The translations under genes and the position numbers were made by a program. Positions 15,252 through 64,000 of a DNA stretch of 64,000 nt are shown here, piece by piece. Numbering within the stretch: the stretch's first letter is position 1; the number at the start of each line of letters is the position of its first letter. The DNA is from a virus: IMG/VR virus record IMGVR_UViG_3300026488_000020, positions 20,235-84,234 of that record; one strand, written 5' to 3'. The notes under the pieces are model-generated. The model searched no databases and had not been told where the DNA came from. It was given only the letters and a program-made list of their open reading frames with translations.

Positions 15252-15643
15252 TGATAGCATTACAAGATTTAGCAAAGCCACCTAAAGATTATAATACAAT
15301 GGTGGCGCGCAAAACTGGAGTTACCCCAAATAAGGTTGAAGGTGTTGTAGTCAATAAAAAATCTGGAAAAGGATACAATGTAGTTATTCTTATGGATACT
15401 GAAGAGATGCAACCAAATTCACAATTAAAAGTATATTGTAATTGTGACGATTTTAAGTTCAGATGGGCTTATGTTTTACATCAACAATCAGCTTTATTGT
15501 ATCCAGCAAAGTTTAGATTAGAGCCACCAAAAAGTACAAATCCTGATCAAATTATGAATGCGTGTAAACATATTCATACCTTTATTAAATCAGAATCAGA
15601 TAAAGGTTTAAAAGCATTTTCTAAAAGAAAAGGTAGTTTATAA
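15251..15643 (+). CDS. SWIM-like zinc-finger protein, 130 aa
   Basis: The pattern YCNCDDFKFRWAYVL followed by NACKHIHTF gives C-x-C-x(n)-C-x-H, the signature of SWIM zinc fingers, which bind DNA or protein. The segment between is about 45 residues and includes a FRLEPPKSTNPD loop, as in phage proteins of this type. It is coupled by TAATG overlaps to the genes on both sides, the next being RNA polymerase beta-prime, so it may be made with and act with the polymerase. Motif seen; role inferred. Confidence 0.65.
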   Translation: MIALQDLAKPPKDYNTMVARKTGVTPNKVEGVVVNKKSGKGYNVVILMDTEEMQPNSQLKVYCNCDDFKFRWAYVLHQQSALLYPAKFRLEPPKSTNPDQIMNACKHIHTFIKSESDKGLKAFSKRKGSL

Positions 15644-18600
15644 TGGCTATTGAATTATCATTTTCTCTTTTTGAGAATGCATATAAATTAAGAGGCGTTA
15701 CCAATCCTAGCCCTCTTAAAGCTGGTAAATTCAAATTTACAGAAGATGGTTTATATAGTGAATCAATATTTGGTCCACTAAAATCATATTCTTGTAATTG
15801 TGGAAACTTATTTTCACGTGAGAATACTGGAATCAGATGTCCAACGTGTGATGTATTATGTGATACAAATACTTTACGAAGTTCAACTTTTGGTAGAATA
15901 GATTTACCAAAAAATATTTTTATTGTGTTGCCAATTTTTCAAACATTCTTAGCAAATGTTTTTGGACAAACAGCAATTAAGAGTTTATTAGATTATAGAA
16001 AATATGAAACCAATAAGCAGAAGCCTTATTTTTATTCGATCCAACAGCAGAAACTGATTAAAGGAAGTGCCTTTAAAAAGACAGAAGAGCGGATAATGAA
16101 GGAAGTGTATGATATAACAACACTGCATAAATTGTATAGAGCAATGTTAAAATCAAAAGTATTTCGTGAAAATATAATTGATCATTTATCTGATGCTAGA
16201 ATTGCAGATTTTGTATTCGTAAATTTTATTTTAGTTATTCCACCAGATTCTAGACCATTGGTTCAATTGAATAAACAATATCAAGCGCATCCAATAACAG
16301 CAGCATATACTGAGATTCTTAAGAATATTAAAAATTCTTTTCTTGATAAAGCATTTGTAACTAAATCCGAAGGGTTTGGACAAACAGTTTATAAATATCA
16401 AAAATCAGTTAATAAACTATATGAAGAAGTTACAGATAAAAACTTTCAACGTAAAGAGAGTATTGTTCGAGAATCATTAGCTGGTAAAACTGTTGAGACA
16501 TCTCAACGTGCAGTTATTGTACCTGAGCCAGTACTTGCTCCAGGTTCAGTTGCATTGCATGAAGAGACTGTAAAAAAGATTTTTCAGCCTGAGTTATTAC
16601 ATTTTGTGAATAAACAATATGAAGCACAAGAAGGTGATTATTCAATTACTAATTTTGTAGAAACTGTTCATAATCAAACATCATCAAATGGTGATATTAT
16701 TATCGATGATCAAATGTTTATTGATTTCTTAGATGCGAAAGCTTCTGATTTACGAATGATAATGGAGCGACCCCCAGTTTTATATAGATATAATATGGGT
16801 AATGTTTTACTCGGTTCAGTTTATATGGATAATAAACATGTGGGATTTAAACAAGATAGAGTTATTGGAGTAAATTCCATGAATGCTCCAATGTTTAACT
16901 TTGATTTTGATGGAGATTCAGTATCAATATATGCTTTAACCTCAAAACAATCTAAAGAAGCATTTAAATATGGATACACTGAAAATTCAATCGAGTTTGA
17001 ACATAATAGAAACCTGATTCCTAGTTTGGAACATGAATCAATTTATGCCGCATACATGTTATCATTAGGTGCAAGTAAAAAAACTATTCGTAAATACGAC
17101 ATTGATGAATACGATGATTTCGATTCAATGAATGTTACTATTGATAGCATTAATAGAACACCTGGTAGACCAGTAGTGATTGCTGGTAAACAATATCCAT
17201 ATATTGTTGCGGTATTAAATAAAGCTTTAAATTGCAACAAAGAAATTTATGATGGGTCATATGTTTTAAATAAAAAGAATATAAATAAATTATTAAAGTT
17301 GTTAAGAGCTGAAGTTGGAGATGTTGAATTCTTTACTTATATGCATAACTTTGATAAATTTTTATTAGAGTGTTCTACTATTATTCAAGATTGTAATCCA
17401 ACATTTGATTTACACGACTTTGCAATTGGTAATACTGAGATTGATGAATATAAAACAACATTGATTAATGAACCATATATAGCATTTCATCAGAATGATA
17501 TATTATTCCAAGAGTTGGTTACACCAGCTGTAAAAGAATCAGATACAAATATTCTATCGAGAGTTTTTGAATCTGGCGCAAGAATAAAATCAGTACAACT
17601 TTTAAAAGCTGTATCAAATAATGGTGTACCGACAAATATTTATGGTAAAGCATTCCAAGAGAATATTAAAAATTCTTTATTAGATGGCTTGACAAAAAAA
17701 GAATTTTTCATGGGTGGAGATTCGGCACGACTTGCTCTAGCACAAAGACAGGAAGCGATTCCTAAAGGTGGAGAACTTCAGAGAAAATTTTATTACAGTA
17801 CTGGTTTTTTAAAATTATCAGATGATGATGATTGCGGGAGCACTAGAGGTTTTGAATTTAAGATTGTTGATAAAACACATCTTGAATCATTATTTTCCAG
17901 ACATTATATGGATGGTTCAGAAATTGATACAACAGATATGAGTCTTATTGGTTCATATGTAACTTTACGCTCACCTATATATTGTGAATCAAAAGGTTAT
18001 AAAATTTGTAAAAAATGTTTTGGTAAAAAACAACCTCAGTCGAAAGCATTAGGTGCATCTATTGGTGCATATATCTCTGAGTCGATAATCCAATCTGTTT
18101 TAAGAACGCATCACTTTAGTGGAGCGTTTATTACTCAGATTAATTCAGTGATGGTAAAATTGATTAAGAAATTAAGATTTAAGTCACCAGATTTAGTATA
18201 TTATGATGATGAGCAAGATATTCATGACTTACAAGAGTTATTAAATTCTGCAAAATATTATGATTCTGCAAATATGGTTGAGTTAGTTAAACAAGATGAT
18301 GATACAGATAATGTTCATTATAAAGTTCAAATTAATGAGTTACCATTTAACGATGATTCAGTTAAACAGTTAAATAATATTGTTGGTTATATTGATAGAA
18401 ATCGTTCTGTTGATAATCTGATTAGTATTCCAGATATGTATAATTTTCTATTAGATAATGTTGTATTACCAAATGGTATGTTATCAATATTTATCGAACT
18501 AGTTATTAGTATCTTATATTATGATGAACATGATGTTATGATTCGATATTCTAATTTAGAACCTGACCATCAAGTAGCATTGAAAAATGTTATTGATAAG

Positions 18601-18723
18601 TTAGATCCAAAATTAGCAATATTTCACAATTTTAGTAATAAGGCTATTAATAGAATTTATACTACTAAAATAGATGGTAATTTAGATCATATGTATTTTG
18701 ATCTGATAAATTGCTATCATTAA
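15643..18723 (+). CDS. Phage RNA polymerase beta-prime subunit, single chain
   Basis: A 1026 aa multisubunit RNA polymerase beta-prime homologue. YSCNCGNLF...GIRCPTCD (C51, C53, C66, C69) reproduces the CxC-x12-CxxC N-terminal zinc ribbon of bacterial beta-prime. NFDFDGD at 419-425 is the catalytic Mg-binding NADFDGD loop with all three Asp. YKICKKCFGK near 785 looks like part of a second zinc site, and ALGASIGAYISESIIQSVLRTHHFSG near 800-825 matches the GxxxGxxAAQSIGEPxTQxTLRTFHxGG helix before the trigger loop. In phiKZ-type phages beta-prime is split into two genes; here both halves are in one chain. It is overlapped by the SWIM-like gene and precedes the beta pieces at 22912 and 24371. 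Confidence 0.95.
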   Translation: MAIELSFSLFENAYKLRGVTNPSPLKAGKFKFTEDGLYSESIFGPLKSYSCNCGNLFSRENTGIRCPTCDVLCDTNTLRSSTFGRIDLPKNIFIVLPIFQTFLANVFGQTAIKSLLDYRKYETNKQKPYFYSIQQQKLIKGSAFKKTEERIMKEVYDITTLHKLYRAMLKSKVFRENIIDHLSDARIADFVFVNFILVIPPDSRPLVQLNKQYQAHPITAAYTEILKNIKNSFLDKAFVTKSEGFGQTVYKYQKSVNKLYEEVTDKNFQRKESIVRESLAGKTVETSQRAVIVPEPVLAPGSVALHEETVKKIFQPELLHFVNKQYEAQEGDYSITNFVETVHNQTSSNGDIIIDDQMFIDFLDAKASDLRMIMERPPVLYRYNMGNVLLGSVYMDNKHVGFKQDRVIGVNSMNAPMFNFDFDGDSVSIYALTSKQSKEAFKYGYTENSIEFEHNRNLIPSLEHESIYAAYMLSLGASKKTIRKYDIDEYDDFDSMNVTIDSINRTPGRPVVIAGKQYPYIVAVLNKALNCNKEIYDGSYVLNKKNINKLLKLLRAEVGDVEFFTYMHNFDKFLLECSTIIQDCNPTFDLHDFAIGNTEIDEYKTTLINEPYIAFHQNDILFQELVTPAVKESDTNILSRVFESGARIKSVQLLKAVSNNGVPTNIYGKAFQENIKNSLLDGLTKKEFFMGGDSARLALAQRQEAIPKGGELQRKFYYSTGFLKLSDDDDCGSTRGFEFKIVDKTHLESLFSRHYMDGSEIDTTDMSLIGSYVTLRSPIYCESKGYKICKKCFGKKQPQSKALGASIGAYISESIIQSVLRTHHFSGAFITQINSVMVKLIKKLRFKSPDLVYYDDEQDIHDLQELLNSAKYYDSANMVELVKQDDDTDNVHYKVQINELPFNDDSVKQLNNIVGYIDRNRSVDNLISIPDMYNFLLDNVVLPNGMLSIFIELVISILYYDEHDVMIRYSNLEPDHQVALKNVIDKLDPKLAIFHNFSNKAINRIYTTKIDGNLDHMYFDLINCYH

Positions 18724-19851: not shown

Positions 19852-21246
19852 ATGTGTTCATTTGTAAAATTAAATAGTACTAAACAGAGAATTAGTGCAC
19901 AACTTCCAGTTATATTAGAAGCATTAAATACAAAAGGTGGTGACGAATATACGTTTGTTATCGAACATAATGGATTTATTAACAGAATCACTAATGATGA
20001 ATTAAATATTCTAAGTAAGTCTATTCCCGAAAATAGTTTTAAAGATATAGTTGATGAAGCATTTCACTGTTTATTAGAAGATTTTGGAACATATGATGAT
20101 TTTAATATTATTGCATTTTCCCGACTAACTCCTGAAATGGAAGAGACTAATAATTTATTATCTCAACCATATGTTAGACCAAATGGTGATATTATTGTTG
20201 CTCATGGTACAATTCCGAAAGCTGAAGAACTTGCTAAGCAACATGGTATTAGTATTACTGTTGATACTGATCTATTCTTTTGGTTAGATTTTAAAACAGT
20301 TTGTGATTATACTGAAGTAGTTGGTGGAAAGATATCAGCGATGATATGTAACGCAAAATCGGAGATTAAAACATATCAAAATGGTTTAGGTCTTTATGGT
20401 TATAAAGTTACACATAATATAACAGGTTATTCATCAGATTATATTTCAAATATTGATTATGATTTTTTAAAGAAGATTCCAGATTTTGATATACGCAAAG
20501 TAAAAACATATGATCGACCCGAACGTGAAGTGTTGGAACCATTAAGATTAATTTCTTTATTTTCTGGCGGGTTAGATATTACATGTGCAACACAAAAAGC
20601 AATTGAAGATTTAGGACCAGATGAAATAAATTTATGGTATTTTGATTGGGGCACAAATGCAGCATCAGCTGAAATTGAGGCAGGTTGGAAATTTATGAAA
20701 CGTTTAAAAGCAGAAACAAACATTACTGAAATTAATCATGAAACAATTAAAACTGATCAAATGTTTAGAGGTATTCTAAGTGCTTGTGATATGAATGGTA
20801 CTAGATTAACAGATGATAGCGCTGTTGGTGCAGGTGAAGCGGAAGCTGAAGCTGCAATTTCATATGTTCCATATAGAAATACATTTTTAATTACTTTAGC
20901 TGCTGCTAGAGCTGAGCAAATGTATCCTAATGAGCGCATAGCGTTTGTTATTGGGGCAAACTTATCAGAGGGGATGGTTTATCTTGATAACTCTGAAACT
21001 TGGTTACATCGCATTAATGCAATGATTAAAGTAGGAGGTCAAAACACTATTGATTATAGTGTGATCGCACCATATGTTAACAGAACTAAAACTGCTATGG
21101 TTAAAGATGCAATTGATAATAATTTTATTCTTGATACATCATTTAGTTGCTACTTCCCAACAGGTATAACTAAAAGCATTCCATGTGGAAAATGTGGTTC
21201 ATGTTTATTAAAAGAAAATGCTCTTTCAAGAGCAGAAGGAAAATAA
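19852..21246 (+). CDS. Gat-QueC: glutamine amidotransferase/QueC fusion for deazaguanine base modification
   Basis: A 464 aa protein. Residues 1 to about 215 look like a class II (Ntn) glutaminase domain with a potential catalytic Cys2 (MCSFVKLN...). Residues about 230-464 are QueC-like: PP-loop SGGLD at 238-242, YVPYRNTFLITLAAARAE, and a C-terminal zinc Cys cluster (SCYFP, IPCGKCGSCLLK). Fusions of this kind are known from phages such as 9g, where they are proposed to convert preQ0 toward archaeosine (G+) or an amido intermediate. With queC, queE, folE and dpdA in the same window it should act late in the base pathway. The Ntn assignment rests on Cys2 and domain order only. Confidence 0.85.
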   Translation: MCSFVKLNSTKQRISAQLPVILEALNTKGGDEYTFVIEHNGFINRITNDELNILSKSIPENSFKDIVDEAFHCLLEDFGTYDDFNIIAFSRLTPEMEETNNLLSQPYVRPNGDIIVAHGTIPKAEELAKQHGISITVDTDLFFWLDFKTVCDYTEVVGGKISAMICNAKSEIKTYQNGLGLYGYKVTHNITGYSSDYISNIDYDFLKKIPDFDIRKVKTYDRPEREVLEPLRLISLFSGGLDITCATQKAIEDLGPDEINLWYFDWGTNAASAEIEAGWKFMKRLKAETNITEINHETIKTDQMFRGILSACDMNGTRLTDDSAVGAGEAEAEAAISYVPYRNTFLITLAAARAEQMYPNERIAFVIGANLSEGMVYLDNSETWLHRINAMIKVGGQNTIDYSVIAPYVNRTKTAMVKDAIDNNFILDTSFSCYFPTGITKSIPCGKCGSCLLKENALSRAEGK

Positions 21247-24092: not shown

Positions 24093-24371
24093 ATGAAAAT
24101 AGAAAATATCGAAAGAGTAAATCAAATAAAAGATGAGTTGTCAACATTTAAAAAAAATATTAATCAGATGCAAAATTGGATTAAAATTCATCCTGATGGC
24201 GAAGGTTTTTTATTACAAGAATTTTCAGATGGTTCTGGTCATTTAAATATTGGTTTTATGTTTAAGGATGGTGATTACAATGCTGGTATTTATAAAGAGT
24301 TAGCTAATGCTACTCTTGAAATATTTGAAAAGCATTATGCAGTATTACTTGCAGAAATTGAGGAGCTATAA
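24093..24371 (+). CDS. Hypothetical protein inserted between the two beta genes, 92 aa
   Basis: Lies between the two halves of beta and overlaps the second in a TAATG junction. Helical N-terminus (RVNQIKDELSTFKKNINQMQNW), a short beta segment (GEGFLLQEFSDGSGHLNIGF) and a helical end. Position suggests co-expression with the polymerase, perhaps a polymerase-associated factor. No family recognised. Confidence 0.6.
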   Translation: MKIENIERVNQIKDELSTFKKNINQMQNWIKIHPDGEGFLLQEFSDGSGHLNIGFMFKDGDYNAGIYKELANATLEIFEKHYAVLLAEIEEL

Positions 24372-26884
24372 TGAGTTTAGATAAATTAGTATATGATGGA
24401 AATTTAGAAGATGCTTTAGATGAAGCAAATCAACTAGAGCCATTGGATACAATTAATGAATTGACCGCTAAAGAATTAGCTGAATCAATTGAGTTGGATA
24501 AACTTGACTTAACAGAAGCATACGAAAATGCTGATGAATCTCAAATTATGTTTAGTCCACAAATTGAAGTTTTTGAACCATGGGCAGCACATGTTGATGC
24601 ATCAAGAACAAACATGTCTGCAAAACAGTTGCTTCAAACAGTAACATCAGATAATAATGATTCACCATATGTTTTAAATAAAAACTATCAAGCAATGACA
24701 AATATCAATTCCCCATTCATTGAGTATGCAAAAGAAGATGGTGTAATTTTATACTCAAATTTCAACTTCTTGATAATTTATTATCTTGCATCAAACGAGT
24801 TAGAAACATTATATTGTCCAGATGTAAAAAAACTTACAAATAATACTTTAACTTTAAAGTATAAATTAGATATGCATAAGAGTAAAAAGTTTTCAAAAGG
24901 AGATATATTATTTGATTATACTGGTCAATCAATTGATGGTAATGTTCCAAAGATTGGATACAGAACTAAAATTCTATATGGTTCGTTTTATGGATATACC
25001 GCAGATGATGCATTTGTAATGTCTGAATCATATGCTGATAGAACTCGCATCGATTATAGTAAAAAGGTTTTTGTACCTGTTACTAAAGAGTTAAAATATT
25101 TAAAAAATTCTCTAGATAAATATTTATTTACTCCTGGTGAAGTATCAGATGTAAATTATTTAGAATATTTTAAAATTGATTCGTCTGATAGTATGTTATC
25201 AGAGTTTAACAATACAAGTACTAGACAATCAAAGATTTATGGTAAGTCTGTTGATTCAATTCATGGTGGAACTATCAAATCTTTAAAGGTTCATAGAATC
25301 ACAGATAAAACCTTTGATGAATTAGATGATGAGTATATATACACTGAAGGGTTAATTCGCGAGGTTCAAGAACAATATCAACGTCAGATTGAGATTAAAA
25401 AAGATTTATTTAAACATTTAAATAATGTTTTTACAGTTGAAGGTCAAGCAGTTGAGTTCACGAACAATATTTTTTCACAGTGGGAAAGTACTGATAAATT
25501 TCCGAATCTGTCATTAGAAGCGATTGCAACTGATTATAGAATTGATAAAGATAAGATTGATTATGTTGTTGAAATTGAGATATATAAATCTGAACCAACA
25601 TGTGTTGGTGATAAATTTGCAAATGTTTTTGCAGGTAAGGGTGTATGTTCGTTAATTTTGCCAGATAATATTATGCCCGCTGGTGCAGATATTATATTTA
25701 ATCCTCTTGGGTTATTTGGTCGTAATAACTGGGGGACTGTTTTTGAGATGGGAATTTCAAAAGTTATCCAAGATATTGAATCACATCTAGATGATCAATC
25801 TGCTGTTGTTTCAAGATTAGAGTTTGTGCGCCAAAATTTCTTTGAAGTATTTGATAAAGAATATTCAAAAGCAGTATTAGAATTAATATATTCATTTGAT
25901 GATCCAAAAATGTATGGTTTATTTAAAGAATCTGTTTTAAAAAATGGATTATATTTCTTCGTGGATAATTTTCCTGGTATATCATTTAAAGATTATATCG
26001 ATACTTTTATCTTAAAATATCAAGAACGTTACGATATTAATATCACAGATAAAGAACCTATTGTTTATTCTGAGGAGTTGATGCAATTTCTTAGAGATAG
26101 AGGTTTTATTCATTCAGTATGGGGTGATGATATTGTTCAAGCAGTTCAACAAGAATGTTATGTTGGATACAATTACTGGATTAAATTATTTCATACATCT
26201 TATAGTAAATACAATGCAATTTCTTTTGCAAATAGTTATTCTAAGAGTACGGGTGAACCTCCTCGGGGTAGAACTAAGGGTGGTGGCTGTCATATTAGTT
26301 GGCAATCAACTGCTGCGTTGATTGGTCATATGGAAGGCAATCCATGTTCTGTCGAATTACGAACAATTAAATCTGACGCAGTTCAAGATAAAAATAACTT
26401 TAATCGTAAGATGATCCAAAATGGTGAATATATTATGAAAGATAAATATAAGTCTCCCACAGTTAATACTTTAAATAATGGCCTTAATATGCTTTGTTTA
26501 AAATTTAGTTCTATTCATGATAATAATGATGAAGATTCATTTGATGATGATTATTCTGAAGCATTAGAAGATGAAGAAGAAGTGAAAATTGATGATTTAT
26601 TTACTGGAGGAAATAAAGATTATGAAAGGGCGGATAATCAAGATTTAGAAATTGATGAAGATGAAGATATGGTTGAATCTGTTGCAGTTGAATCTACACC
26701 TGCACATAATCCAGAGACCGGCGAAATTATAAAGGTTATAGAATATACGCCTGAAAGTGTTATAAAGGTTATAGATATAACTGATATTGGTGAGCCAATA
26801 ATTGAAGAAGAAATTGATAATTCTGATATTGAAGAGGTTTTAAATTCTGATTCTGTTCAGATCGATATAGATATAGATGATTAA
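24371..26884 (+). CDS. Phage RNA polymerase beta subunit, C-terminal half
   Basis: An 837 aa protein. WAAHVDASRTNMSAKQLLQT (71-90) matches the FLEHDDANRALMGANMQRQ segment. GYTADDAFVMSES (208-220) matches GYNFEDSIVxSE. GDKFANVFAGKGV (413-425) carries the two conserved Lys (GDKxAxRHGNKGV), and NPLGLFGRNNWGTVFEMGI matches NPLGVPSRMNIGQIxExxLG. GHISWQS..ALIGHMEGNP..LRTIKSDA is the C-terminal clamp segment. About 115 residues of acidic tail (from ~720) follow, unusual for beta. It ends at a perfect palindromic terminator. With beta-prime and the N-terminal half it completes the catalytic core. Confidence 0.93.
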   Translation: MSLDKLVYDGNLEDALDEANQLEPLDTINELTAKELAESIELDKLDLTEAYENADESQIMFSPQIEVFEPWAAHVDASRTNMSAKQLLQTVTSDNNDSPYVLNKNYQAMTNINSPFIEYAKEDGVILYSNFNFLIIYYLASNELETLYCPDVKKLTNNTLTLKYKLDMHKSKKFSKGDILFDYTGQSIDGNVPKIGYRTKILYGSFYGYTADDAFVMSESYADRTRIDYSKKVFVPVTKELKYLKNSLDKYLFTPGEVSDVNYLEYFKIDSSDSMLSEFNNTSTRQSKIYGKSVDSIHGGTIKSLKVHRITDKTFDELDDEYIYTEGLIREVQEQYQRQIEIKKDLFKHLNNVFTVEGQAVEFTNNIFSQWESTDKFPNLSLEAIATDYRIDKDKIDYVVEIEIYKSEPTCVGDKFANVFAGKGVCSLILPDNIMPAGADIIFNPLGLFGRNNWGTVFEMGISKVIQDIESHLDDQSAVVSRLEFVRQNFFEVFDKEYSKAVLELIYSFDDPKMYGLFKESVLKNGLYFFVDNFPGISFKDYIDTFILKYQERYDINITDKEPIVYSEELMQFLRDRGFIHSVWGDDIVQAVQQECYVGYNYWIKLFHTSYSKYNAISFANSYSKSTGEPPRGRTKGGGCHISWQSTAALIGHMEGNPCSVELRTIKSDAVQDKNNFNRKMIQNGEYIMKDKYKSPTVNTLNNGLNMLCLKFSSIHDNNDEDSFDDDYSEALEDEEEVKIDDLFTGGNKDYERADNQDLEIDEDEDMVESVAVESTPAHNPETGEIIKVIEYTPESVIKVIDITDIGEPIIEEEIDNSDIEEVLNSDSVQIDIDIDD

Positions 26885-38321: not shown

Positions 38322-39336
38322 AAAAATAATAAAAAAATTAGAGAAATCTAAAATAACTTTACATAAGTATCAAATTAAAAAATTTATAAATTTCTTAGAA
38401 GAATTAGGATTTGATAGTGTTTTTATTTCTTATGATGAAGCATCTTATAATAAATATGTTTTTTGCATAAATCAATATAAAAACACTTGTACATTATATT
38501 ATTATGTTGAAGATGAATGTTGTACGCGAGAAGAAATCAGTTTTGGCGACTTAATCTTGATAAGTAACGGTGAAGATTTTAAAGAAATTACAACAATTAG
38601 TAAAATGTGTAATTATAAAGAAGCATCCCAAAAAAAAGAAGCTATTGATAAAATGCTTCTAAAAACATTATCATCTGAAAATCGCAAATTTGCGCAAAGT
38701 ATTAAAAATCTAATTATGGTTAATGAAGTAATTGAGAAATATAATACACAAATTACACAAATTTTTAATACTAATTATTATTCAAAATTATGTAAAGATA
38801 TATTACGTGATTTGACAGGAGATGATTGTTATGGTCTGATTGAAATTCCAGTTGGTAATAGATACGAGGAACTCATGTTACATTTACATTTGGATAATGT
38901 TAATTTATATAGAGGTGCTGCAACATATGAAGGTTCCGGCATATTTGCTGATGTTGGATTACAACATGTGTCACATATTATAAATATTCAAACATTTATT
39001 GACGAATTAGATTCCGCAGTTATACAATCATCTAAATTAAATAGTATGTTTGAAGTATCTTTTGATGGAACGTTTAATTGGGCAAATGACAATAATGATG
39101 TTCAAAAATTTATTTCATTTAAAGAATTTGAATGTGCTATAGAAAGACAATTATATGAAATTAAAAACTCTCAAGATATTATATTTAAAAATTTTTATAA
39201 AATTTTAGTTTTATTAAAAGCTGATATGACAGCTTGTGATATATTAGTTATTGATAAATATCAAGATTGTGGAAATGAGCCTGATAGTGCATCAATACAA
39301 GACAGCATTGAGATAGATAAAAAGGAAATTAAATGA
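38314..39336 (+). CDS. Hypothetical protein, 340 aa
   Basis: ATAAGGAAAGATA precedes the ATG. Rich in Asp, Asn and Tyr, with several helical stretches and an acidic end. No recognised domain. Overlaps the ligase-like gene by 4 bases (ATGA). Confidence 0.6.
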   Translation: MNKKIIKKLEKSKITLHKYQIKKFINFLEELGFDSVFISYDEASYNKYVFCINQYKNTCTLYYYVEDECCTREEISFGDLILISNGEDFKEITTISKMCNYKEASQKKEAIDKMLLKTLSSENRKFAQSIKNLIMVNEVIEKYNTQITQIFNTNYYSKLCKDILRDLTGDDCYGLIEIPVGNRYEELMLHLHLDNVNLYRGAATYEGSGIFADVGLQHVSHIINIQTFIDELDSAVIQSSKLNSMFEVSFDGTFNWANDNNDVQKFISFKEFECAIERQLYEIKNSQDIIFKNFYKILVLLKADMTACDILVIDKYQDCGNEPDSASIQDSIEIDKKEIK

Positions 39337-39788
39337 ATGTTATAGAATTACCGAAAATGATAGCTGAGGATATTTGGAATTTAATTGATGAGCTTCAAAA
39401 TACATCAGGCACAAATGATAAAAAAGAAATTCTTGCGGCAACTTTAGGACATCAAGAATTATATAAATATTTACAATATGTCTATGATGAGGTCCATTAT
39501 GTATATGGTAAATCAAAATTGCCATCAATTCCAAGAGTTGTTCCAACAGATGAAAAAGATTGGATACATGATGAGAATTTATTAGAACTATATGCATTAG
39601 TTGAAAATATGAATGATGGTGTATTAAAAGGCAATTCATCTGATCAAGCAATGATTGATTATTGTGTGGGTAAGCCTTCTTATTATGAAGACCTGCTTTT
39701 CTATATCATAAAACGCAATATAAAAGCTGGTATCAACGCAAAAGGAATTAATGATGTATTTGGTCGAGTAATACCTATTGCGCCATAA
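39333..39788 (+). CDS. Stand-alone copy of a DNA-ligase N-terminal domain, 151 aa
   Basis: Its sequence aligns with residues 1-142 of the DNA ligase at 40348: LQNTSGTNDKKEIL versus LQSTSGSNDKKIIL, YLQYVYDEVHYVYGKSKLP versus YLVYVYDEVNYVYGKSSLP, and a matching LLFYIIKRNIKAGINAKGIN segment. It stops at IPIAP, just before the ligase's WPYQ. It has no nucleotidyltransferase motifs, so it cannot be a full ligase. It may be a decayed or recombined ligase copy, or a free binding subunit. AAGGAAATTAA precedes the ATG. Confidence 0.8.
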   Translation: MNVIELPKMIAEDIWNLIDELQNTSGTNDKKEILAATLGHQELYKYLQYVYDEVHYVYGKSKLPSIPRVVPTDEKDWIHDENLLELYALVENMNDGVLKGNSSDQAMIDYCVGKPSYYEDLLFYIIKRNIKAGINAKGINDVFGRVIPIAP

Positions 39789-39869
39789 ATAATATAATTA
39801 TTTTCAGTTTGTCCAAAATGTGCTAGTGAACTGGTTGGAAAAAATAATACTAAACCACAGAGTGAAATA

Positions 39870-40391
39870 GTGAATCGATTTATTAAATCTCACGGAGATA
39901 GATATGATTATTCAAAATTTGAATATGTTGATGCTCACACAAAAGCTAAAATTATTTGTAGAAAGCATGGGATATTTGAACAAAAGGTTCACGATCATTC
40001 AAAAGGAATAGGTTGTCCAATATGTTCATCATCAAAAGGAGAATTGAAAATAATTAATTTTTTACAAAAGAATGGTATTGATTTTAAAACTCAATATAAA
40101 TTTAAAGATTTGAAACAATTAAGGTTTGATTTTTATTTACATGATTTAAATATCTTGATAGAATATGATGGTATTCAACATTTTAAGCCTATTGATTTTT
40201 TTGGTGGAGTAAATTCTTTTAAAATATTAAAAGATAATGATACATTAAAAAATAATTATTGTAAAAATAATAATATTCGACTAATTCGAATAAATTATAA
40301 GCAATTTAAAAAGTTAGATAAAATTTTATCTAAAATAAAGGAAATATATGAAAACAGTAATGGAAATGATATTGCGGCTACAATCAACTAG
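39870..40391 (+). CDS. Homing-type endonuclease, VSR/PD-(D/E)XK-like with zinc ribbon
   Basis: A zinc-binding unit (GDRYDYSKFEYVDAHTKAKI, then CRKHG...GIGCPICS) resembles the DUF723 repeats of giant-virus and phage homing nucleases. It is followed by a nuclease part with RFDFYLHDLNILIEYDGIQH, where E-x-DG-x-QH is typical of very-short-patch/I-Bth0305I-like enzymes. The annotated start is a GTG with a weak site; the frame is open further upstream to 39798 and encodes another zinc-ribbon piece (VCPKCASELVGKNNTKPQSE), so the gene is probably 5'-truncated. It lies between the two ligase copies and overlaps the ligase start by 44 bases. Confidence 0.75.
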   Translation: MNRFIKSHGDRYDYSKFEYVDAHTKAKIICRKHGIFEQKVHDHSKGIGCPICSSSKGELKIINFLQKNGIDFKTQYKFKDLKQLRFDFYLHDLNILIEYDGIQHFKPIDFFGGVNSFKILKDNDTLKNNYCKNNNIRLIRINYKQFKKLDKILSKIKEIYENSNGNDIAATIN

Positions 40392-41910
40392 TGGGTCAAA
40401 TGATAAAAAAATTATTCTTGAAGAATATAAAGATGATGAATCAGTTAAAAAATATTTAGTATATGTTTATGATGAAGTAAATTATGTTTACGGTAAATCA
40501 AGTTTACCTAAAAATTTAGTATCTGAAAGTGAAGAACTTGTTGATATTGATGATGGGGAAGATGCATTCTATAAACTTATAAATGACATGTCTACTCGAA
40601 AAATTGTCGGAAAAGAAGCAGATAAAGAAATAAATTCTTTTATTATTCAAAATCACCCATTTTATCAAAATTTATTATTGTACATTTTAAAGAGAGATAT
40701 AAAAGCATCTGTTGGAGCAAAGTTAATAAATAAAGTTGTTCCGAAACTAATTTTAATTTGGCCATATCAACGATGTGAATCAGAATCATATATGAAGAAA
40801 AGAATCGTCTATCAAACAGATGGAGATAATCATGGTGCAATGGCTCAATCGAAAGCTGATGGTTCATTTTTAAATGTAGTTGTGTCTCCAGAAGTCGGTA
40901 ATGTATCAGCAACTACTCGATATGGTAGAGAAGCCCAAACTTCTATATTTTTAAATACTTTATCAAATATTCCAACATTGATGGATTTTGATGAAGATTG
41001 GGTAATTCATGGAGAACTTTTAATTAAGAATCCTGATGGAACTATTATGGAACGTGCTAAGGGTAATGGTAAAATTAATAAGTTTAATAAAAGAAATAGC
41101 ACTTGGAAAGAGATGCAAAATAAACTAGATAAAGCAAAAACATCAAAAGCTTGTGAGAAAATTGAAAAAGAGATGGATGAGGCACATGCAGAATGGTTAT
41201 ATATTTCTAAGAATCTTGTTTATGAAGTATGGGATATTTTACCATATGAGAATTGGATGTCTCTAGAATATTCAGTTGATACATTAACTCGTTTTAACAC
41301 TATAATGGATTGTGTTGCAAAATATAATGATTATATTGAAAAAGCAGGTACAAATATTAATAATTGTGAATTACGAATAATTGACCACGAAATTGTTTTT
41401 GATGAAGAACAAGCTATGGAATTCTATCAAAAACAATTAGATGCTGGTCTAGAAGGCATGGTAATTAAAAATCTTGATGCAACATGGGAACATGATACAA
41501 ATCGTCAAGGAATTATTAAACTTAAAGATTTTAAAGAAAATGATTTAATTATTGTTGGTGTTAAAATGGCTGATCCTGATTCAGCATTCGCTGGTGGTAT
41601 TGGAGCATTAATTGTTGAATCGTCAGATGGTATCATTCATACAAATGTTAGTGGTATGAAGAGACACGAAAGAGGATTAGAAAGAGTTGATCCAAATGAC
41701 TCATCAAAAGGTCTTAAAATTATCGATGGTTTCGATTTTGAACAATTTACAGGTAAAGTTGCTGCTGTAAAATATAATGAGATGTCTTGTAACAAGCAAG
41801 GGTCTTATGATTTATTTCTTGCAAATGTTTTAGAAATAAGAGACGCGTCTGATAAGTCGTTTCCAGATGACTTTGAAAAAATTAAGAAAGAAGCAAAATT
41901 TAAAGGATAG
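40348..41910 (+). CDS. ATP-dependent DNA ligase
   Basis: A 520 aa ligase. Residues 1-150 are the N-terminal domain shared with the gene at 39333. Nucleotidyltransferase motif I is AQSKADGS with adenylated Lys169. Further motifs follow: DEDWVIHGELLIK (III-like), LEGMVIKN (IV) and IIKLKDFKENDLIIVGVK (V/VI), then an OB-type C-terminal region. T4 DNA ligase is 487 aa. AAAGGAAATAT precedes the ATG inside the homing-nuclease gene. It seals nicks in replication and repair. Confidence 0.92.
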   Translation: MKTVMEMILRLQSTSGSNDKKIILEEYKDDESVKKYLVYVYDEVNYVYGKSSLPKNLVSESEELVDIDDGEDAFYKLINDMSTRKIVGKEADKEINSFIIQNHPFYQNLLLYILKRDIKASVGAKLINKVVPKLILIWPYQRCESESYMKKRIVYQTDGDNHGAMAQSKADGSFLNVVVSPEVGNVSATTRYGREAQTSIFLNTLSNIPTLMDFDEDWVIHGELLIKNPDGTIMERAKGNGKINKFNKRNSTWKEMQNKLDKAKTSKACEKIEKEMDEAHAEWLYISKNLVYEVWDILPYENWMSLEYSVDTLTRFNTIMDCVAKYNDYIEKAGTNINNCELRIIDHEIVFDEEQAMEFYQKQLDAGLEGMVIKNLDATWEHDTNRQGIIKLKDFKENDLIIVGVKMADPDSAFAGGIGALIVESSDGIIHTNVSGMKRHERGLERVDPNDSSKGLKIIDGFDFEQFTGKVAAVKYNEMSCNKQGSYDLFLANVLEIRDASDKSFPDDFEKIKKEAKFKG

Positions 41911-55246: not shown

Positions 55247-55999
55247 ATGTTAACTAAACAAGATATAACAAAAGCAACTCTTAAAGAAATGTCTGATGAT
55301 CAGATTAATGATGTACGTAGAGATTTAATTGATATTAAACCATTTTCTGGTCATGAGAATGTTCCAATGACTGTTGAGGCTCGTGCTGTAATGGCATTAG
55401 ATGTTTCTGAAAAAATGAAAGAAATATTTGATATTATGAAACTTGATTATAAAAATGATCCAAATCTTAAAGATACTCCGATGAGAGTTTCTAGTATGTG
55501 GGTTAATGAATTAATGGTTGGTAGATATCAAAACAAACCTCGTATGGAATCTTTTCCTTTACAATTTGGTGGCGACATTGGCGGAGTATTAATTGATGAT
55601 GCACCATTAGAACCAGGTATGATGATTACTAAAAAAGTAGATATTCGATCTCTGTGTTCTCATCACTTAATGCCATTCTTTGATCAAGATGAAAATGCAT
55701 ATGCAATTATTAGCTATGTGCCATCTGACAAACTACTTGGTATTTCTAAATTACAAAGAGTTGTTCATTGGTATGGTTCTCGTCCACAGCTACAAGAACA
55801 ATTAACATATCAGATTTACAAAGATGTGTGTGATACAATTGGTACAAATAATGTTATGGTTTCAATGCAAAATATTACACATACATGTGAATCATTGCGT
55901 GGTGTTGAATCAGCTTGTGGTAGAACAAGTACAATTCAATTTGGCGGAGTATATAATGACTCTAGTTTAAGACGTGAAGTTATTTCACAAGCTAAATAG
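55247..55999 (+). CDS. folE: GTP cyclohydrolase I
   Basis: A 250 aa FolE. The active-site zinc motif SLCSHHLMPF has Cys near 137 with His-His; GISKLQRVVHWYGSRPQLQE is the conserved GLSKLxRxVxxxxxRxQxQE segment; and HTCESLRGVESACGRTST carries the second zinc Cys near 214. It makes dihydroneopterin triphosphate from GTP, the first step of the preQ0 route. AAGGAAAAAATAA precedes the ATG. It partners with queE and queC here; queD (the next step) was not found and may be host- or elsewhere-encoded. Confidence 0.95.
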   Translation: MLTKQDITKATLKEMSDDQINDVRRDLIDIKPFSGHENVPMTVEARAVMALDVSEKMKEIFDIMKLDYKNDPNLKDTPMRVSSMWVNELMVGRYQNKPRMESFPLQFGGDIGGVLIDDAPLEPGMMITKKVDIRSLCSHHLMPFFDQDENAYAIISYVPSDKLLGISKLQRVVHWYGSRPQLQEQLTYQIYKDVCDTIGTNNVMVSMQNITHTCESLRGVESACGRTSTIQFGGVYNDSSLRREVISQAK

Positions 56000-56647: not shown

Positions 56648-57622
56648 ATGATATCTGAGAATCATCCGTGGTTTTTACCTGAAAATTTTATAGAAAAAAC
56701 AGATACTGATGATGTATTATTATACGCTGATACCGATTCAGCGTATTTATTATATGATTTGCCTTTTGATAAATATCAAGACATTCATCAACTTGTTGAT
56801 TATGTTCAAGGTATCGCTCGTGAACTTGGTACAATATATAATGAAGCTCTTGAATATTATTTATGTGCAAATGCTGGATTGAATCCTAAATATAATACAA
56901 TGGATTTTAAATCAGAAGTTGTTGCATATAAGGGATTTTTCAATTCTAAAAAATTTTATGCTTTAGCTAAAGCTTGGGATGAGGGAACCTTTTTTGAAGA
57001 GAAACCTAAACTCAAGATAACAGGTGGAGCAATAAAAAAATCAGATGTTACAAAACTTACTAAACAGTTACTAACAGATGTTTATAGTGTTTTAGTTACT
57101 GATATTGATAAAGTTGATTTAGTTGAAATGTATAGAATTATTTTTGTACAATTAAAAGCTAAATATAAATTCCAAATAATGGACTCAATTAAAAATATGG
57201 AGTTTGCTGATTTCAGTATTCCTAAAAAATGGGGAAGCACTGAAAAAACAATTCCACCACCTGTTACTGGTGCAAAATTATATAATTATATAATGGAAGA
57301 TACGTTCAGACCATCTGATTCATTTATTGTTGTTAAAGTGTATGTTGATATTGCTAGACTATTACAAGAGTATGGTCGCGACCCTGCAAAAGTTTCAGAA
57401 TTTATTCTTCAACAAGAAGAAGTTGAATTTTTAAAAAACAAGATTAATGTTATTTCAATTCCACCAACATTAGATGAAGAACAGAAACAACGATTATTAG
57501 ATAGATTAGATAAACTTAACATTCGATTAGATTATGATGAAATCATAAGTTATAATATTGATACTAAACTCGAACCATTTGAAAAACTATTTTCAGATGA
57601 TATTCGAATGAAAGTATTATAA
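56648..57622 (+). CDS. Family B DNA polymerase, C-terminal fragment (palm motif C and thumb)
   Basis: A 324 aa protein. LLYADTDSAYL (D28-T-D30-S) is family B motif C with both catalytic Asp. FFNSKKFYALAKAWDEGTFF and KPKLKITGGAIKKSD match the KKRY/KLKxKG region after motif C, and the rest fits the thumb. Motifs A (DxxSLYPS) and B (KxxxNSxYG) and the exonuclease domain are absent. The chain starts with its own ATG and AGGAGATCAT site, so it is a separate gene. The exonuclease piece is the next gene, in the wrong order for a simple break. Confidence 0.88.
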   Translation: MISENHPWFLPENFIEKTDTDDVLLYADTDSAYLLYDLPFDKYQDIHQLVDYVQGIARELGTIYNEALEYYLCANAGLNPKYNTMDFKSEVVAYKGFFNSKKFYALAKAWDEGTFFEEKPKLKITGGAIKKSDVTKLTKQLLTDVYSVLVTDIDKVDLVEMYRIIFVQLKAKYKFQIMDSIKNMEFADFSIPKKWGSTEKTIPPPVTGAKLYNYIMEDTFRPSDSFIVVKVYVDIARLLQEYGRDPAKVSEFILQQEEVEFLKNKINVISIPPTLDEEQKQRLLDRLDKLNIRLDYDEIISYNIDTKLEPFEKLFSDDIRMKVL

Positions 57623-57631
57623 GGAGCACAA

Positions 57632-58693
57632 ATGGAACACGGAACTCCTATATTATTCAATCAAGAGAATGTAAGAGATATGACAAAATATCTAAGAGAT
57701 AATTCGTACAAGTTTCATCAATTTTATAATATTGATGTTGATACTAGTGAATATGCATTTATTCAATTTATGATGAATTATAAAGATTCTCCTAGATCAA
57801 AAGTATTAAATAAAACATATTATGATATTGAAACTTTTGTAAATGAAAAAGGTGACTTTACTGATGCTCAAAAGGTAAAAGAAGAAGTTAACTCTATTGC
57901 ATTATATAACAATGTTTCGAATACAGCATATGTTATTGCATTTGTAACTGAATGTGATATAACAGATCCTGTTGAAATTGAAGCAGGTGTGCGAAAACTA
58001 TTTGCAGAAAAAGTTGCAGAAAATGAAACATATAATATTCCAGGAATGACGCTAGTTGTTTTAATTTTAGAGAATGAAAAAGAAGTTTTAGAAAAATTCT
58101 TTAGTTTAATGAAGGAGCAAAATACTTTAGCTCTAATTGGTTTTAATTCAAGCACGTTTGATGATCCATATATGTTTAATAGATGTGCAGCACTCTTTGG
58201 CGAGGAGAGAACTAAGGATATGGTTTCAGAGTTCGGAATCTTGGATAAATATGGTGACTCATCTTTTGAATTACCAGATTATCTTTTAGTTGATCTTTTA
58301 AAACTTTATAAACCTGTTGGTCAAGGTGGGGGAGGATTAGGTAAATCCTTACCCGATTTTAAATTAAATACTGTTGCAAAAAAAGAGCTAGGTATAACGA
58401 AACTTGATTTACCTGGCGGATTCAGACACAATTATCTGCACAATATTATTGGATATTTAACATATAATATTTTTGACACATTGATAACTTTTAAACTTGA
58501 TGAAAAATTATTGTTTATGGAATTGATGTTTGATCTCAGTAAATATAATAATGCTACAATGGGTGCAACGATTAATGGTCGTTCAATCCTATACACATAT
58601 AGAAATAATCTAATGTATGCAACTCAAGATAAAGTTGTAAGGACTAAGAAGTTCTCAGGAGAAGTTTTATATGAACCAACAATCAAACTTTAG
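57632..58693 (+). CDS. Family B DNA polymerase, N-terminal/exonuclease fragment
   Basis: A 353 aa protein with the 3'-5' exonuclease motifs: Exo I TYYDIETF (D65, E67), Exo II LIGFNSSTFDDPY (N172, D177/D178) and Exo III YNIFD (Y278, D282). It ends SGEVLYEPTIKL, the segment that in intact polymerases directly precedes motif A. The palm/fingers part with motifs A and B is therefore missing and is not found elsewhere in the window. AAGGAGCACAA precedes the ATG. It may act with the other fragments to proofread. Confidence 0.9.
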   Translation: MEHGTPILFNQENVRDMTKYLRDNSYKFHQFYNIDVDTSEYAFIQFMMNYKDSPRSKVLNKTYYDIETFVNEKGDFTDAQKVKEEVNSIALYNNVSNTAYVIAFVTECDITDPVEIEAGVRKLFAEKVAENETYNIPGMTLVVLILENEKEVLEKFFSLMKEQNTLALIGFNSSTFDDPYMFNRCAALFGEERTKDMVSEFGILDKYGDSSFELPDYLLVDLLKLYKPVGQGGGGLGKSLPDFKLNTVAKKELGITKLDLPGGFRHNYLHNIIGYLTYNIFDTLITFKLDEKLLFMELMFDLSKYNNATMGATINGRSILYTYRNNLMYATQDKVVRTKKFSGEVLYEPTIKL

Positions 58694-58701
58694 GAGGGAT
58701 C

Positions 58702-59130
58702 ATGACAAATAGCGAGATATTAACAATGTCTCAAGCCTTGAAAACTGAAATTACAGATCAAACCAGTCTATGTTCAAATCTTTTTAGATCTGATATTTCA
58801 GGAAAAGACTTAGAGGCATTAGTTAACTCAACACAAGAGAAAATTGATGAATTGAAATTTTATCAACATGTTATTTATAATCGTAACCAAGAGAAAACGA
58901 TATATAAAAATAAAGAGATATCATATCAAGAAATCATTAGAATTAAAGAAGGTCTCCTTCTTAAGAAAAAACTTCAAACATCACTTATCGGTGATTCAGG
59001 AAACAACCTGGTAAATTTATCATTGGAAGCATTTCAAAAGGTGCAAGAATATAAAAAAGATTTAACAATGATATATAATATTTTAGAAACTTTTAATAAC
59101 TCAACATTTAATATACAGGATCATTCATGA
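58702..59130 (+). CDS. Coiled-coil protein, 142 aa
   Basis: A strong AGGAGGGATC site precedes the ATG. Mostly helical (EALVNSTQEKIDELKFYQHV, YKNKEISYQEIIRIKEGLLL). Overlaps the queE start by 4 bases. No family recognised. Confidence 0.6.
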   Translation: MTNSEILTMSQALKTEITDQTSLCSNLFRSDISGKDLEALVNSTQEKIDELKFYQHVIYNRNQEKTIYKNKEISYQEIIRIKEGLLLKKKLQTSLIGDSGNNLVNLSLEAFQKVQEYKKDLTMIYNILETFNNSTFNIQDHS

Positions 59131-59963
59131 CAAAAATTACAAAACTTAATTTAACACCTCTCGAGCGCAAGCCCCAACTAGTACAACACTTTGTAAGTTT
59201 AGAAGGTGAAGGTGGAACAATTGGTTCATCCGCACTATATGTACGAACAGGTGAGTGTAATGCTCGGTGTAATTTTTGTGACACGAAATTTAGTGTCGAA
59301 TCTGATGGTAAACATGATATTGTTGATATGACCTCTGAGAAATATGTTGAACTATTAACCTCAACGTATTCTAGATCCCAGAGAGCTAATATTACAAATA
59401 TGTCTATTACTGGTGGTGAACCACTGTTAAATATTAATCATATGAGAGATTTAATTATTGCTACAAAATTAGCATTTCCTTATATTACTCGTATCATTTT
59501 TGAAACAAATGGTACAATGCTTTCAGAAGTTGATAATTGTTTTAAATTGATCGAACAAGTTGGGTCATTACATCCAAAAATTAAATTTATGTTATCAATT
59601 TCTCCAAAACTTTCTGGAGTAACTAGCTATTCAAATGTAAAAGATGATGCTGAGATTTTAGATATTTATAAAAATGTTTTAAATAATTATAAAGGTATTT
59701 TAGATGCGCATTTTGATATTCAATTAAAATTTGTACATTCATCTAAACTTTTAAAATGGAATGAAACATTGATTGAATATGCTTTAGGTATGTGTGACCC
59801 GATTCATAAGAATCAGATTCTTATAATGCCGTTTACACCTGATCAACCTCTCGATAGAGATGCTAAAGAATGGACCTCATCAAAGAATGCTGCTGCTCGA
59901 TATGCAATGGTCAACTATTTTAGATATAGTCCAAGAGTACATGTTGATCGCAAATTAGATTAA
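59127..59963 (+). CDS. queE: 7-carboxy-7-deazaguanine synthase QueE
   Basis: A 278 aa radical-SAM enzyme. The FeS motif is GECNARCNFC (C44-x3-C48-x2-C51), preceded by VQHFVSLEGEGGTIG (the QueE EGEG segment). ISITGGEPLL is the SAM-binding GGE motif. It makes 7-carboxy-7-deazaguanine from carboxytetrahydropterin, directly feeding QueC. It lies 1.9 kb before dpdA and 3.1 kb after folE. It is ATGA-coupled to the coiled-coil gene upstream. Confidence 0.94.
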   Translation: MTKITKLNLTPLERKPQLVQHFVSLEGEGGTIGSSALYVRTGECNARCNFCDTKFSVESDGKHDIVDMTSEKYVELLTSTYSRSQRANITNMSITGGEPLLNINHMRDLIIATKLAFPYITRIIFETNGTMLSEVDNCFKLIEQVGSLHPKIKFMLSISPKLSGVTSYSNVKDDAEILDIYKNVLNNYKGILDAHFDIQLKFVHSSKLLKWNETLIEYALGMCDPIHKNQILIMPFTPDQPLDRDAKEWTSSKNAAARYAMVNYFRYSPRVHVDRKLD

Positions 59964-61828: not shown

Positions 61829-63175
61829 ATGAAATATGTAAGTGTAACTTCGCCAGGTAGCGAAATGTCAAAACCGATTTTTAACTACTTTGATGATTAT
61901 TTGGTATCATTAGGGGAACCTACAACTAGCTCAGCTTGGACATTAATGTCTGTGTTGAAACATGCTAAAAAACTTATTAAAGAGAAACCTGATTCATCAA
62001 GACTATATATTGATTCTGGAGGATTCCAGATCATTATTGGTCATATTGCATTTAAAAGAGTTAAAGAATTTATTTTTGCATATCATGAAGTTCTTGAAAT
62101 GTTTAGAAATGATATCGATGCAATTTTTGCATTAGATGTTTTTAATGTTAAGTTTTTAAAAGATCCAAATGCTGCTTATAATAAAGACAATATTATAGAA
62201 CTATATAATATCAATAAATTTAGTATGCAAGAATCAATAAAACTGATTCAAAAATATCCAGAGATTGCAGATAAACAATTATTCATTTTACAAAGTGGAA
62301 ATGTTACAACATTTAACATATGGAAAGATTTATTTACAGATGTTGAAGTTTATAAACATTATAAACGTTGGTCAATCGGAGGATTGGTAGGATTAAAGAA
62401 AGCGACAAATGCAAAATTTAGTCACGCAGTTCCTGCAACTTTATGGTTATTAACATATCAAAAAAAATATGATATAACAATTGATCAGATTCATTGGTTG
62501 GGACAGAGTTCAAGATTGAGCTTTTTAGCATTATCTTTATTTGAAAAACTATTTGGATTGAATATGACATCTGATAGTTCACAGTTAGTAAGATTTGCGC
62601 CACTTGATGCAAAATTACCATACTTATCATTTCAAGATGATAAGTATACTTTAATTGAAAATAAAGCAGATGTTATATCTAAGATGTTGCCAAGACATTC
62701 AATTGATGATCCAAAATGTTATATTCGAAAGAATCATACTAATGGAAAAACTGTTGAAGTTAAAGTTGAAGATGCAAAGAAAAATCCAAATGTTTTAACA
62801 TTTGAAGAATCAGCATATGAAGCAGATGATGGTAAATCAAAAAACTATTATCAAACTACACCTGAACAGTATTTAGAATATACGGGCAAATTAGATAATC
62901 AAACATTTATTGAATTACAATCACAAAATTTATTTGCAGATTTAAATTTTGGTAATCTGATTGCAGATATGATTGTTGAAAAAGGTTTAGACTATTTTAC
63001 AGATGTGCAATTATTAAAAGATTTACATCCTGTAATGAATCGTGGACGAATTGCTAAAGAAATGTTTAACAATTTACAATACTTTAAGAAGTTTGAACCT
63101 ATAATTGCATCTGGTAATATAGATGCAGCAGATGCAATTATGCAAGAGATTGTTGAATCATATTCAAAAGATTAG
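61829..63175 (+). CDS. dpdA: DpdA-like 7-deazaguanine DNA transglycosylase
   Basis: A 448 aa TGT-superfamily protein. DSGGFQ at 62-67 is the active-site DSGGxQ motif; AIFALDVFNV has an Asp near 102; SIGGLVG (181-187) is the GGL(A/S)VG substrate motif; IHWLGQSSRLSFLAL and TSDSSQLVR follow the DpdA pattern (H-x-LG...SxDS). Tgt enzymes act on tRNA, while DpdA proteins insert preQ0 or a derivative into phage DNA. The accompanying folE, queE, queC and Gat-QueC support the DNA role. The C-terminal ~180 residues are not typical Tgt. AAGGAAAGAT precedes the ATG. Confidence 0.88.
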   Translation: MKYVSVTSPGSEMSKPIFNYFDDYLVSLGEPTTSSAWTLMSVLKHAKKLIKEKPDSSRLYIDSGGFQIIIGHIAFKRVKEFIFAYHEVLEMFRNDIDAIFALDVFNVKFLKDPNAAYNKDNIIELYNINKFSMQESIKLIQKYPEIADKQLFILQSGNVTTFNIWKDLFTDVEVYKHYKRWSIGGLVGLKKATNAKFSHAVPATLWLLTYQKKYDITIDQIHWLGQSSRLSFLALSLFEKLFGLNMTSDSSQLVRFAPLDAKLPYLSFQDDKYTLIENKADVISKMLPRHSIDDPKCYIRKNHTNGKTVEVKVEDAKKNPNVLTFEESAYEADDGKSKNYYQTTPEQYLEYTGKLDNQTFIELQSQNLFADLNFGNLIADMIVEKGLDYFTDVQLLKDLHPVMNRGRIAKEMFNNLQYFKKFEPIIASGNIDAADAIMQEIVESYSKD

Positions 63176-63312: not shown

Positions 63313-64000
63313 ATGGCAAAAAATATCACAGTAAACAACGTAATCGTACAATATGTATTCTTAGAGAGAGTAAACCCAGTTTCAAATAAGTTTACATTCG
63401 ATTGTTTAATTCCACAAGATCATCCACAAGTTGCTGAAGTAATGGCAGCATGTTCTGCTGAATGGTTAACTGTTGCTGCAGGTGCTCCTGAAACTGCTGC
63501 TCAATCAATGGGTACAAATTGGACTCTCCCAAATGATACTGGTCACATTCATCCTGATGTAGCTCCTATGCTAGATCCAAATCTACAATATCTTCGCTTC
63601 CGTGGTGTTCAAGATGCTGGTGTTGCTCCTGAGAAAGCAACTAAAATTTATGCCAACATGCAACAACCAGATGGTACAATCGGTGTTGGTGAAGTAACTA
63701 ATCGTTCAATTATTGGTGATGGTACAATTGCAAATGTCAATTTAAATGCATTTGGTTATCAAGCATCTGGTCAAAAAGGTGTAAAATTTTATGGTCAATG
63801 GATTCAAATCGTTGAACTTAAAGAAAGCAAATATGCGGGTGCCGGTGCTCCTCCAGCTCCAACTGCTAATGGTTATGTAGCACCAGCTGAAGCATTTGCT
63901 GCTCCTGTTGCTGCTCCTGTTGCTGCTCCTGTTGCTGCTCCTGTTGCTGCTCCTGTTGCTGCTCCTGTTGCTGCTCCTGTTGCTGCTCCTGTTGCTGCTC
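63313..64000 (+). CDS. Probable ssDNA-binding protein (3' end outside window)
   Basis: The frame is open from the ATG at 63313 (TTAAGGAATTTAAA site) to the window end, at least 229 codons. The sequence (NNVIVQYVFLERVNPVSNKF, QYLRFRGVQDAGVAPEKATK, VGEVTNRSIIGDGTIANVNL, FYGQWIQIVELKE) matches the pattern of small phage OB-fold ssDNA-binding proteins of the DUF2815/gp2.5 type, with a Phe/Tyr-rich beta core followed by a flexible tail. The tail is an APVA repeat of unknown length, unlike the usual acidic tail. Well-used codons suggest high expression. Family by pattern only. Confidence 0.65.
   Translation, partial: MAKNITVNNVIVQYVFLERVNPVSNKFTFDCLIPQDHPQVAEVMAACSAEWLTVAAGAPETAAQSMGTNWTLPNDTGHIHPDVAPMLDPNLQYLRFRGVQDAGVAPEKATKIYANMQQPDGTIGVGEVTNRSIIGDGTIANVNLNAFGYQASGQKGVKFYGQWIQIVELKESKYAGAGAPPAPTANGYVAPAEAFAAPVAAPVAAPVAAPVAAPVAAPVAAPVAAPVAA
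63898..64000 (+). repeat. 12-bp repeat tract encoding AAPV, runs off the window
   Basis: At least eight in-frame copies of GCTGCTCCTGTT encode Ala-Ala-Pro-Val in the SSB-like gene. The copies are almost identical, so copy number probably varies between isolates. Read length may limit accuracy of this tract. Confidence 0.9.

Follow-up and report, generated by a model that had tools for sequence, protein, structure and literature searches.

The window analyzed here, a stretch of 64,000 nucleotides covering bases 20235-84234 of the IMG/VR virus record IMGVR_UViG_3300026488_000020 (84,234 bp in total), carries two adjacent genes that encode separate parts of a family B DNA polymerase (PolB) of the T4 gp43 type; bare position numbers are window coordinates. 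The first gene (56648-57622, 324 residues), referred to here as the C piece, encodes the part of the palm with motif C, the KKxY motif and the thumb, and the second (57632-58693, 353 residues), the exo piece, encodes a shortened N-terminal domain and the 3'-5' exonuclease domain. Both open reading frames (ORFs) are intact, lie 9 nt apart on the plus strand and are preceded by a Shine-Dalgarno sequence, AGGAG for the C piece and AAGGAG for the exo piece. The initial annotation of this DNA had described the two fragments as standing in reversed order, and this order is real and is common to 13 related contigs.

The C piece starts 27 residues ahead of motif C, DTDS (residues 28-31, 56729-56740), which contains the catalytic aspartates and is uninterrupted in the window. 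Alignment to T4 gp43 identifies KKFY at residues 101-104 (56948-56959) as the counterpart of KKRY in T4 and places a C-terminal FEKLF (57578-57592) where T4 gp43 has the hydrophobic tail SLDFLFG, making FEKLF a possible clamp-binding peptide. The C piece has no Pfam match above the cut-off and aligns with columns 567-767 of phrog_262 (E 4e-23). A search of the PDB with the C piece alone returned nothing useful, and a profile of 13 C-piece members was needed instead, which matches residues 616-771 of RB69 gp43 (E 7e-8). In addition, the predicted fold of the C piece matches RB69 gp43 with a Foldseek probability of 1.00; the thumb is modeled confidently and the palm part with low confidence. These comparisons bear out the earlier description of a gene that starts just before motif C and includes the thumb.

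The exo piece matches Pfam DNA_pol_B_exo1 (E 1.7e-9), columns 96-362 of phrog_262 (E 6e-33) and residues 83-352 of RB69 gp43 (E 5e-14). The alignments place exo I at DIE (57824-57832, in the context YYDIE), exo II at GFNSSTFD (58139-58162) and exo III at YNIFD (58463-58477). Together with the alignment to T4, these matches confirm that the gene contains all three exonuclease motifs and ends shortly before motif A. The acidic residues of exo I, II and III (DIE, NxxxFD and YNxxD) are present in all 13 contigs of the three-piece clade described below. Over the entire 84,234-bp record, only the exo and C stretches match phrog_262, and the absence of motifs A and B, initially noted for both genes and the rest of the window, extends over that whole record.

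A separate gene with motifs A and B

Relatives of the window phage were retrieved from IMG/VR, where the exo piece as query yielded 8 related contigs and an alignment of the exo piece yielded 13; a scan of genome contigs gave no relative. The relatives are given G numbers, with G001 the closest relative of the window and G014 the outgroup. The initial annotation had predicted a palm/fingers gene elsewhere in the genome. Such a gene, with motif A and, where complete, motif B, is present in six contigs (G001, G007, G008, G009, G010 and G013), but not on the window's own record, which is cut at the contig end. The middle gene, as it is termed here, lies downstream of the exo gene by 9.1 kb in G001 (418 residues, matching columns 382-549 of phrog_262), by ~18 kb in G010 (431 residues), by ~38 kb in G008 (414 residues) and by 2.7 kb in G007, where it is partial and cut by the contig end. 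The 272.6-kb contig G013 has the gene (443 residues) on its other strand, at a distance of 72 kb from C and exo (L093:4763-6094 and L094:4057-6166), and in G009 it lies near the start of a 181.6-kb contig (416 residues) on which neither an exo nor a C piece was found.

Motif A (DxxSLYP) of the six middle genes reads QDAKSLYP, NDASSLYP, FDASALYP or similar, with SLYP in four and ALYP in G010 and G013, and motif B of the five complete genes reads GIKVTLNSGYG or similar (KxxLNSxYG). Between the two motifs, the fingers carry a long insertion. The gene spans from just before motif A to just after motif B and fills the gap between the exo and C pieces exactly; a six-member profile matches residues 380-437 and 486-591 of T4 gp43 (E 1.7e-4 overall). 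When the middle piece was compared by tblastn with the named phage collection, a single weak match was obtained, to the 484-kb uncultured phage LR756508, whose polymerase is encoded by two colinear ORFs, as opposed to three permuted ones in the window clade. In the first ORF of LR756508, the exo part is followed by motifs A and B; an intein lies near motif B, and the tail of the ORF resembles an intein. C follows ~4 kb downstream (L097:4666-7719).

The window record ends within a partial gene on the plus strand (63313-64000), a homolog of L044:10172-11077 of G001, and stops in a perfect 12-bp tandem repeat of 8.8 copies (63896-64000). In G001, the third gene begins 3.0 kb after the end of the counterpart of the 63313 gene. 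Given this synteny, the third gene of the window phage is expected just beyond the contig, about 3 kb later, and an assembly break at the repeat is a simple reason for its being missing from the record.

The three pieces together cover the sequence of gp43

Aligned end to end with T4 and KVP40 gp43, the exo, middle and C pieces meet at T4 residues ~367-370, some 40 residues ahead of the motif A aspartate, and at ~598, between motifs B and C. On the structure of RB69 gp43, we take the first break to be the border between the N-terminal/exonuclease part and the palm, and the second to fall inside the palm. Apart from a reduced N-terminal domain and the fingers insertion, nothing of gp43 is missing or doubled; exo I-III, motifs A, B and C and KKxY all align, and the catalytic residues are all kept across the pieces. 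The pieces do not follow the single-chain order exo-A-B-C-thumb. Rather, there are three genes in the order C, exo and, at a distance, AB. All three have a start and a stop of their own, and most copies of all three genes are preceded by a Shine-Dalgarno sequence. A profile comparison of the chains concatenated in canonical and in genome order gave nearly equal total scores and was not used as evidence.

Split genes with C upstream of exo are kept in 12 IMG/VR relatives. The C gene is followed directly by the exo gene (from an overlap to a gap of 13 nt) in 11 of the 14 contigs, and the reading frames are intact in 13 divergent contigs. Comparison of G004, G005, G011 and G012 gave ratios of nonsynonymous to synonymous substitution rates (dN/dS) of 0.036-0.071 for exo and C, which are under strong purifying selection. 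In the exo-domain tree, the 13 contigs of the window clade are monophyletic (99/98), with the two-piece G014 as their sister (100/99); within the clade, G001 and the window are sisters (99/97) and share 73% identity in the exo piece. T4, KVP40, MIJ3, VPALA, Aes508 and Campylobacter phage F379 stand apart; the tree has long branches, so that outgroup placement is not firm.

These observations bear on the alternative that the fragments are what remains of a decaying polymerase and that the phage relies on another polymerase or on that of its host. Such a reading would account for the lack of a palm/fingers piece on the window record taken alone, but the catalytic residues are kept in all pieces, dN/dS is about 0.05, frames remain intact across the 13 contigs and the middle piece is present in six. 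The initial annotation had named a complete family B or other replicative polymerase elsewhere, or failure to find any palm/fingers fragment, as outcomes that would speak against its reading. Neither occurred: the records searched yielded no complete PolB, and in five records, including contigs of 227 kb, 182 kb and 167 kb, the alpha subunit of DNA polymerase III had no match and PolA none above the cut-off. Purifying selection and the third gene already largely refute decay, which we regard as highly improbable.

Mobile elements at the gene junctions

Although the window has no endonuclease at its own junctions, and neither the window nor G011 has an intein in motif C, mobile elements are frequent at these sites in the relatives. 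A split intein interrupts the C piece at DTD/S in G001, G002, G008 and G012 (L044:1353-3890, L048:3404-5008, L045:2420-4005 and L096:460-3050), and the intein halves of G001 and G012 flank an endonuclease ORF. Endonuclease genes stand right after the exo gene in G004, G005, G007 and G012. Compared with its close relative G011, G012 has an insertion of ~1.6 kb in motif C and an endonuclease insertion of ~770 bp precisely where exo ends. The endonuclease gene that follows exo in G005 ends with a second copy, ~35 bp long, of the exo 3' end, and both genes end in KLNKEIHFEV (L010:3560-4420). A further endonuclease is located between C and exo in G007, and in G001 the end of the middle gene and the ORF of an HNH endonuclease overlap. 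The presence of these endonucleases and insertions identifies the exo/palm and palm/C borders as live homing sites in the clade; homing at the junctions resembles that at the known polymerase splits of Aeromonas phages. Inteins also occur in G014, where one lies inside motif A (between LDQ and TSMYPS) and another in the C piece, between D and TDS (L090:1299-3728).

Another alternative is that expression is followed by covalent joining of the pieces, either at the RNA level by trans-splicing of split introns or at the protein level by split inteins. There are precedents in multi-ORF phage polymerases joined by group I introns (CB7, PMC7344957) or by split inteins (Aes508; MIJ3, PMC6892783), and the clade itself carries split inteins at motif C. 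However, intein halves are absent from the exo/AB and AB/C breaks, where the ends of the exo and middle pieces are gp43-like up to their termini, and the motif C intein is an additional break confined to G001, G002, G008 and G012. Searches with Rfam gave no intron match in the window or in the loci of three relatives (L044, L046 and L090). Moreover, each piece has its separate start and stop, mostly with a ribosome-binding site, and genes in reversed order or on opposite strands cannot be cis-spliced. Covalent joining of the three pieces is therefore very unlikely.

Probable assembly of the polymerase from three chains

Taken together, the sequence evidence makes it very likely that a T4 gp43-type polymerase is formed in this group of large, uncultivated phages by three non-covalently assembled chains. 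Chain 1, the N-terminal and proofreading exonuclease part (57632-58693), would dock its proofreading site onto the rest of the enzyme; chain 2, from the separate gene off the window contig, would supply the palm with motif A and the enlarged fingers with motif B; and chain 3 (56648-57622) would supply the palm with motif C and the thumb. No peptide bond would link the chains as they fold together, the palm sheet would be completed by chains 2 and 3, and in some relatives the split intein at motif C would first join chain 3 from two precursors. The low palm confidence in the models of the C and middle pieces would be in keeping with a palm that depends on the two chains together; shallow alignments alone could also cause it.

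A rival reading is that the parts do not act together: chain 1 would be a free exonuclease, and chains 2 and 3 would form a polymerase core without bound proofreading. The position of the first break at the edge of the exonuclease module, ahead of the palm, is compatible with such a division, whereas the adjacency and probable co-translation of C and exo in 11 of the 14 contigs suggest that the two are made in matched amounts. We therefore consider separate action to be quite improbable and favor an assembly of all three chains.

The layout of G014 hints at how the permuted order may have arisen. In this contig, the C piece is directly upstream of an ORF of 809 residues that contains exo, motif A (interrupted by an intein) and motif B and stops before motif C, as expected of a tandem gene duplication trimmed at both outer ends, i.e. 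a circular permutation. We suggest that the permuted two-gene arrangement [C-thumb][exo-A-B] found in G014 goes back to a tandem duplication that was truncated, or to some comparable rearrangement. A second break, immediately ahead of motif A, would later have released the A-B part, which then moved by at least 2.7 kb. The likely agents are homing endonucleases that insert at the junctions. A true three-subunit replicative PolB, with a separate proofreading subunit and a two-chain palm, that arose by permutation and a second break under homing-endonuclease pressure and is stable clade-wide in large phages is, on balance, likely.

Several points weigh against this interpretation. PF00136, phrog_262, phrog_1918, the middle-piece protein and the middle-piece profile detected no part with motifs A and B in the whole 84,234-bp record, so that the third gene is missing from the window's own record, and the middle piece was likewise not found on G004, an incomplete contig of 167 kb. 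The check for other polymerase families covered five records. Modeled by itself, the middle piece gives a poor prediction, with a predicted local distance difference test score of 56 and low values in the palm parts; Foldseek matches of this AlphaFold model were uninformative and not used. Assembly and activity of the three chains are inferred from sequence completeness, conservation, translation signals and selection, and the proposed permutation step draws on one outgroup contig, G014, which starts inside the C piece.

Other split or notable genes in the window

An ORF of 151 residues (39333-39788) repeats, with 40% identity, the N-terminal 138 residues of an ATP-dependent DNA ligase (40348-41910), and a homing endonuclease ORF (39870-40391) lies between the two. 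The region 39333-41910 thus has the appearance of a partial tandem duplication around a homing endonuclease, a process similar to that proposed for the polymerase. Another essential enzyme in pieces is the phage multi-subunit RNA polymerase (L001:189-4193; window 15643-18723 and 24371-26884), which includes RNA polymerase beta-prime-like fragments of 387 and 416 residues with a homing endonuclease of 527 residues between them, as well as further subunits, a beta-prime-like protein of 1026 and a beta-like protein of 837 residues.

The window also contains genes of the 7-deazaguanine pathway, comprising two QueC-like proteins (one with an N-terminal extension), FolE and QueE, among 8203-8997, 19852-21246, 55247-55999 and 59127-59963. 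In the queE gene of G001, cysteines of the radical-SAM cluster motif are separated by an in-frame mini-intein (L044:5403-6710), which the window copy (59127-59963) does not have. By eye, the product of 61829-63175 resembles a DpdA-type transglycosylase; it has no Pfam or NCBIfam match. The 7-deazaguanine genes and this DpdA-like candidate suggest that the phage DNA is probably modified.

Relation to known split polymerases

Split phage PolB enzymes with two or three colinear ORFs are already known; their parts associate non-covalently or are joined through introns or inteins. The initial annotation had cited phage Aeh1 as a precedent, which is incorrect: in Aeh1 it is nrdA that is split, by MobE, and the split gene 43 belongs to Aeromonas phages 25, 44RR and their relatives (PMC2988022; Aes508 record). 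As in the window clade, the gp43-type PolB of phages 25, 44RR and Aes508 is encoded as separate chains with a homing endonuclease at the break (PMC2988022; JN377894), and in phage 25 the two chains, gp43A and gp43B, purify together and have polymerase activity (PMC2988022). The Aeromonas genes are, however, colinear and adjacent, and 43A (498 residues) includes motif A, with the break between motifs A and B. Aes508 (JN377894) has three ORFs and a split intein at the same DTD/S site as the relatives of the window, leaving two chains after splicing. The window clade differs from these phages in its breaks before motif A and between motifs B and C, its permuted order, its distant third gene and its pieces that are not joined by inteins. 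MobE in Aeh1 nrdA and MobA in T4 topoisomerase (PMC2988022) are further examples in which endonuclease insertion has left an enzyme permanently split yet functional, in these cases with one break and colinear genes.

In the jumbo Pseudomonas phages MIJ3 and PA5oct (PMC6892783), and similarly in the record of Vibrio phage VPALA, PolB is broken at motif C and an endonuclease ORF separates the two parts, and the intein site of MIJ3/PA5oct is that of G001, G002, G008 and G012. In contrast to the window clade, this arrangement is colinear, has one break and is trans-spliced, and exo, A and B of MIJ3 are in one ORF. The polymerase of Pectobacterium phage CB7 is similarly spread over three ORFs (49, 51 and 53) with HNH endonucleases (PMC7344957), but there introns are spliced at the RNA level to give one chain. 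Outside phages, the split PolB3 of Methanobacteriales and Nanoarchaeum equitans (PMC4104785) is a family B polymerase from two genes, non-adjacent in N. equitans; it differs in having two pieces only, in its unrelated lineage and in that the N. equitans pieces could be joined by a split intein. Among the papers searched, which included few from subscription journals, none describes a three-piece or circularly permuted PolB, or one that is at once three-chain, permuted and dispersed.

Significance of a polymerase in three genes

Few single-chain enzymes are as conserved as replicative polymerases. A search with PF00136 misses the polymerase of this phage because it is split and reordered into three genes. 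For the design of split or switchable polymerases, among them ones with a detachable proofreading part, the borders of the three pieces may serve as natural break points, and G014, as an apparent intermediate, makes the order of events testable. The clade would also show to what extent an essential enzyme can be broken up by homing elements and still be retained.
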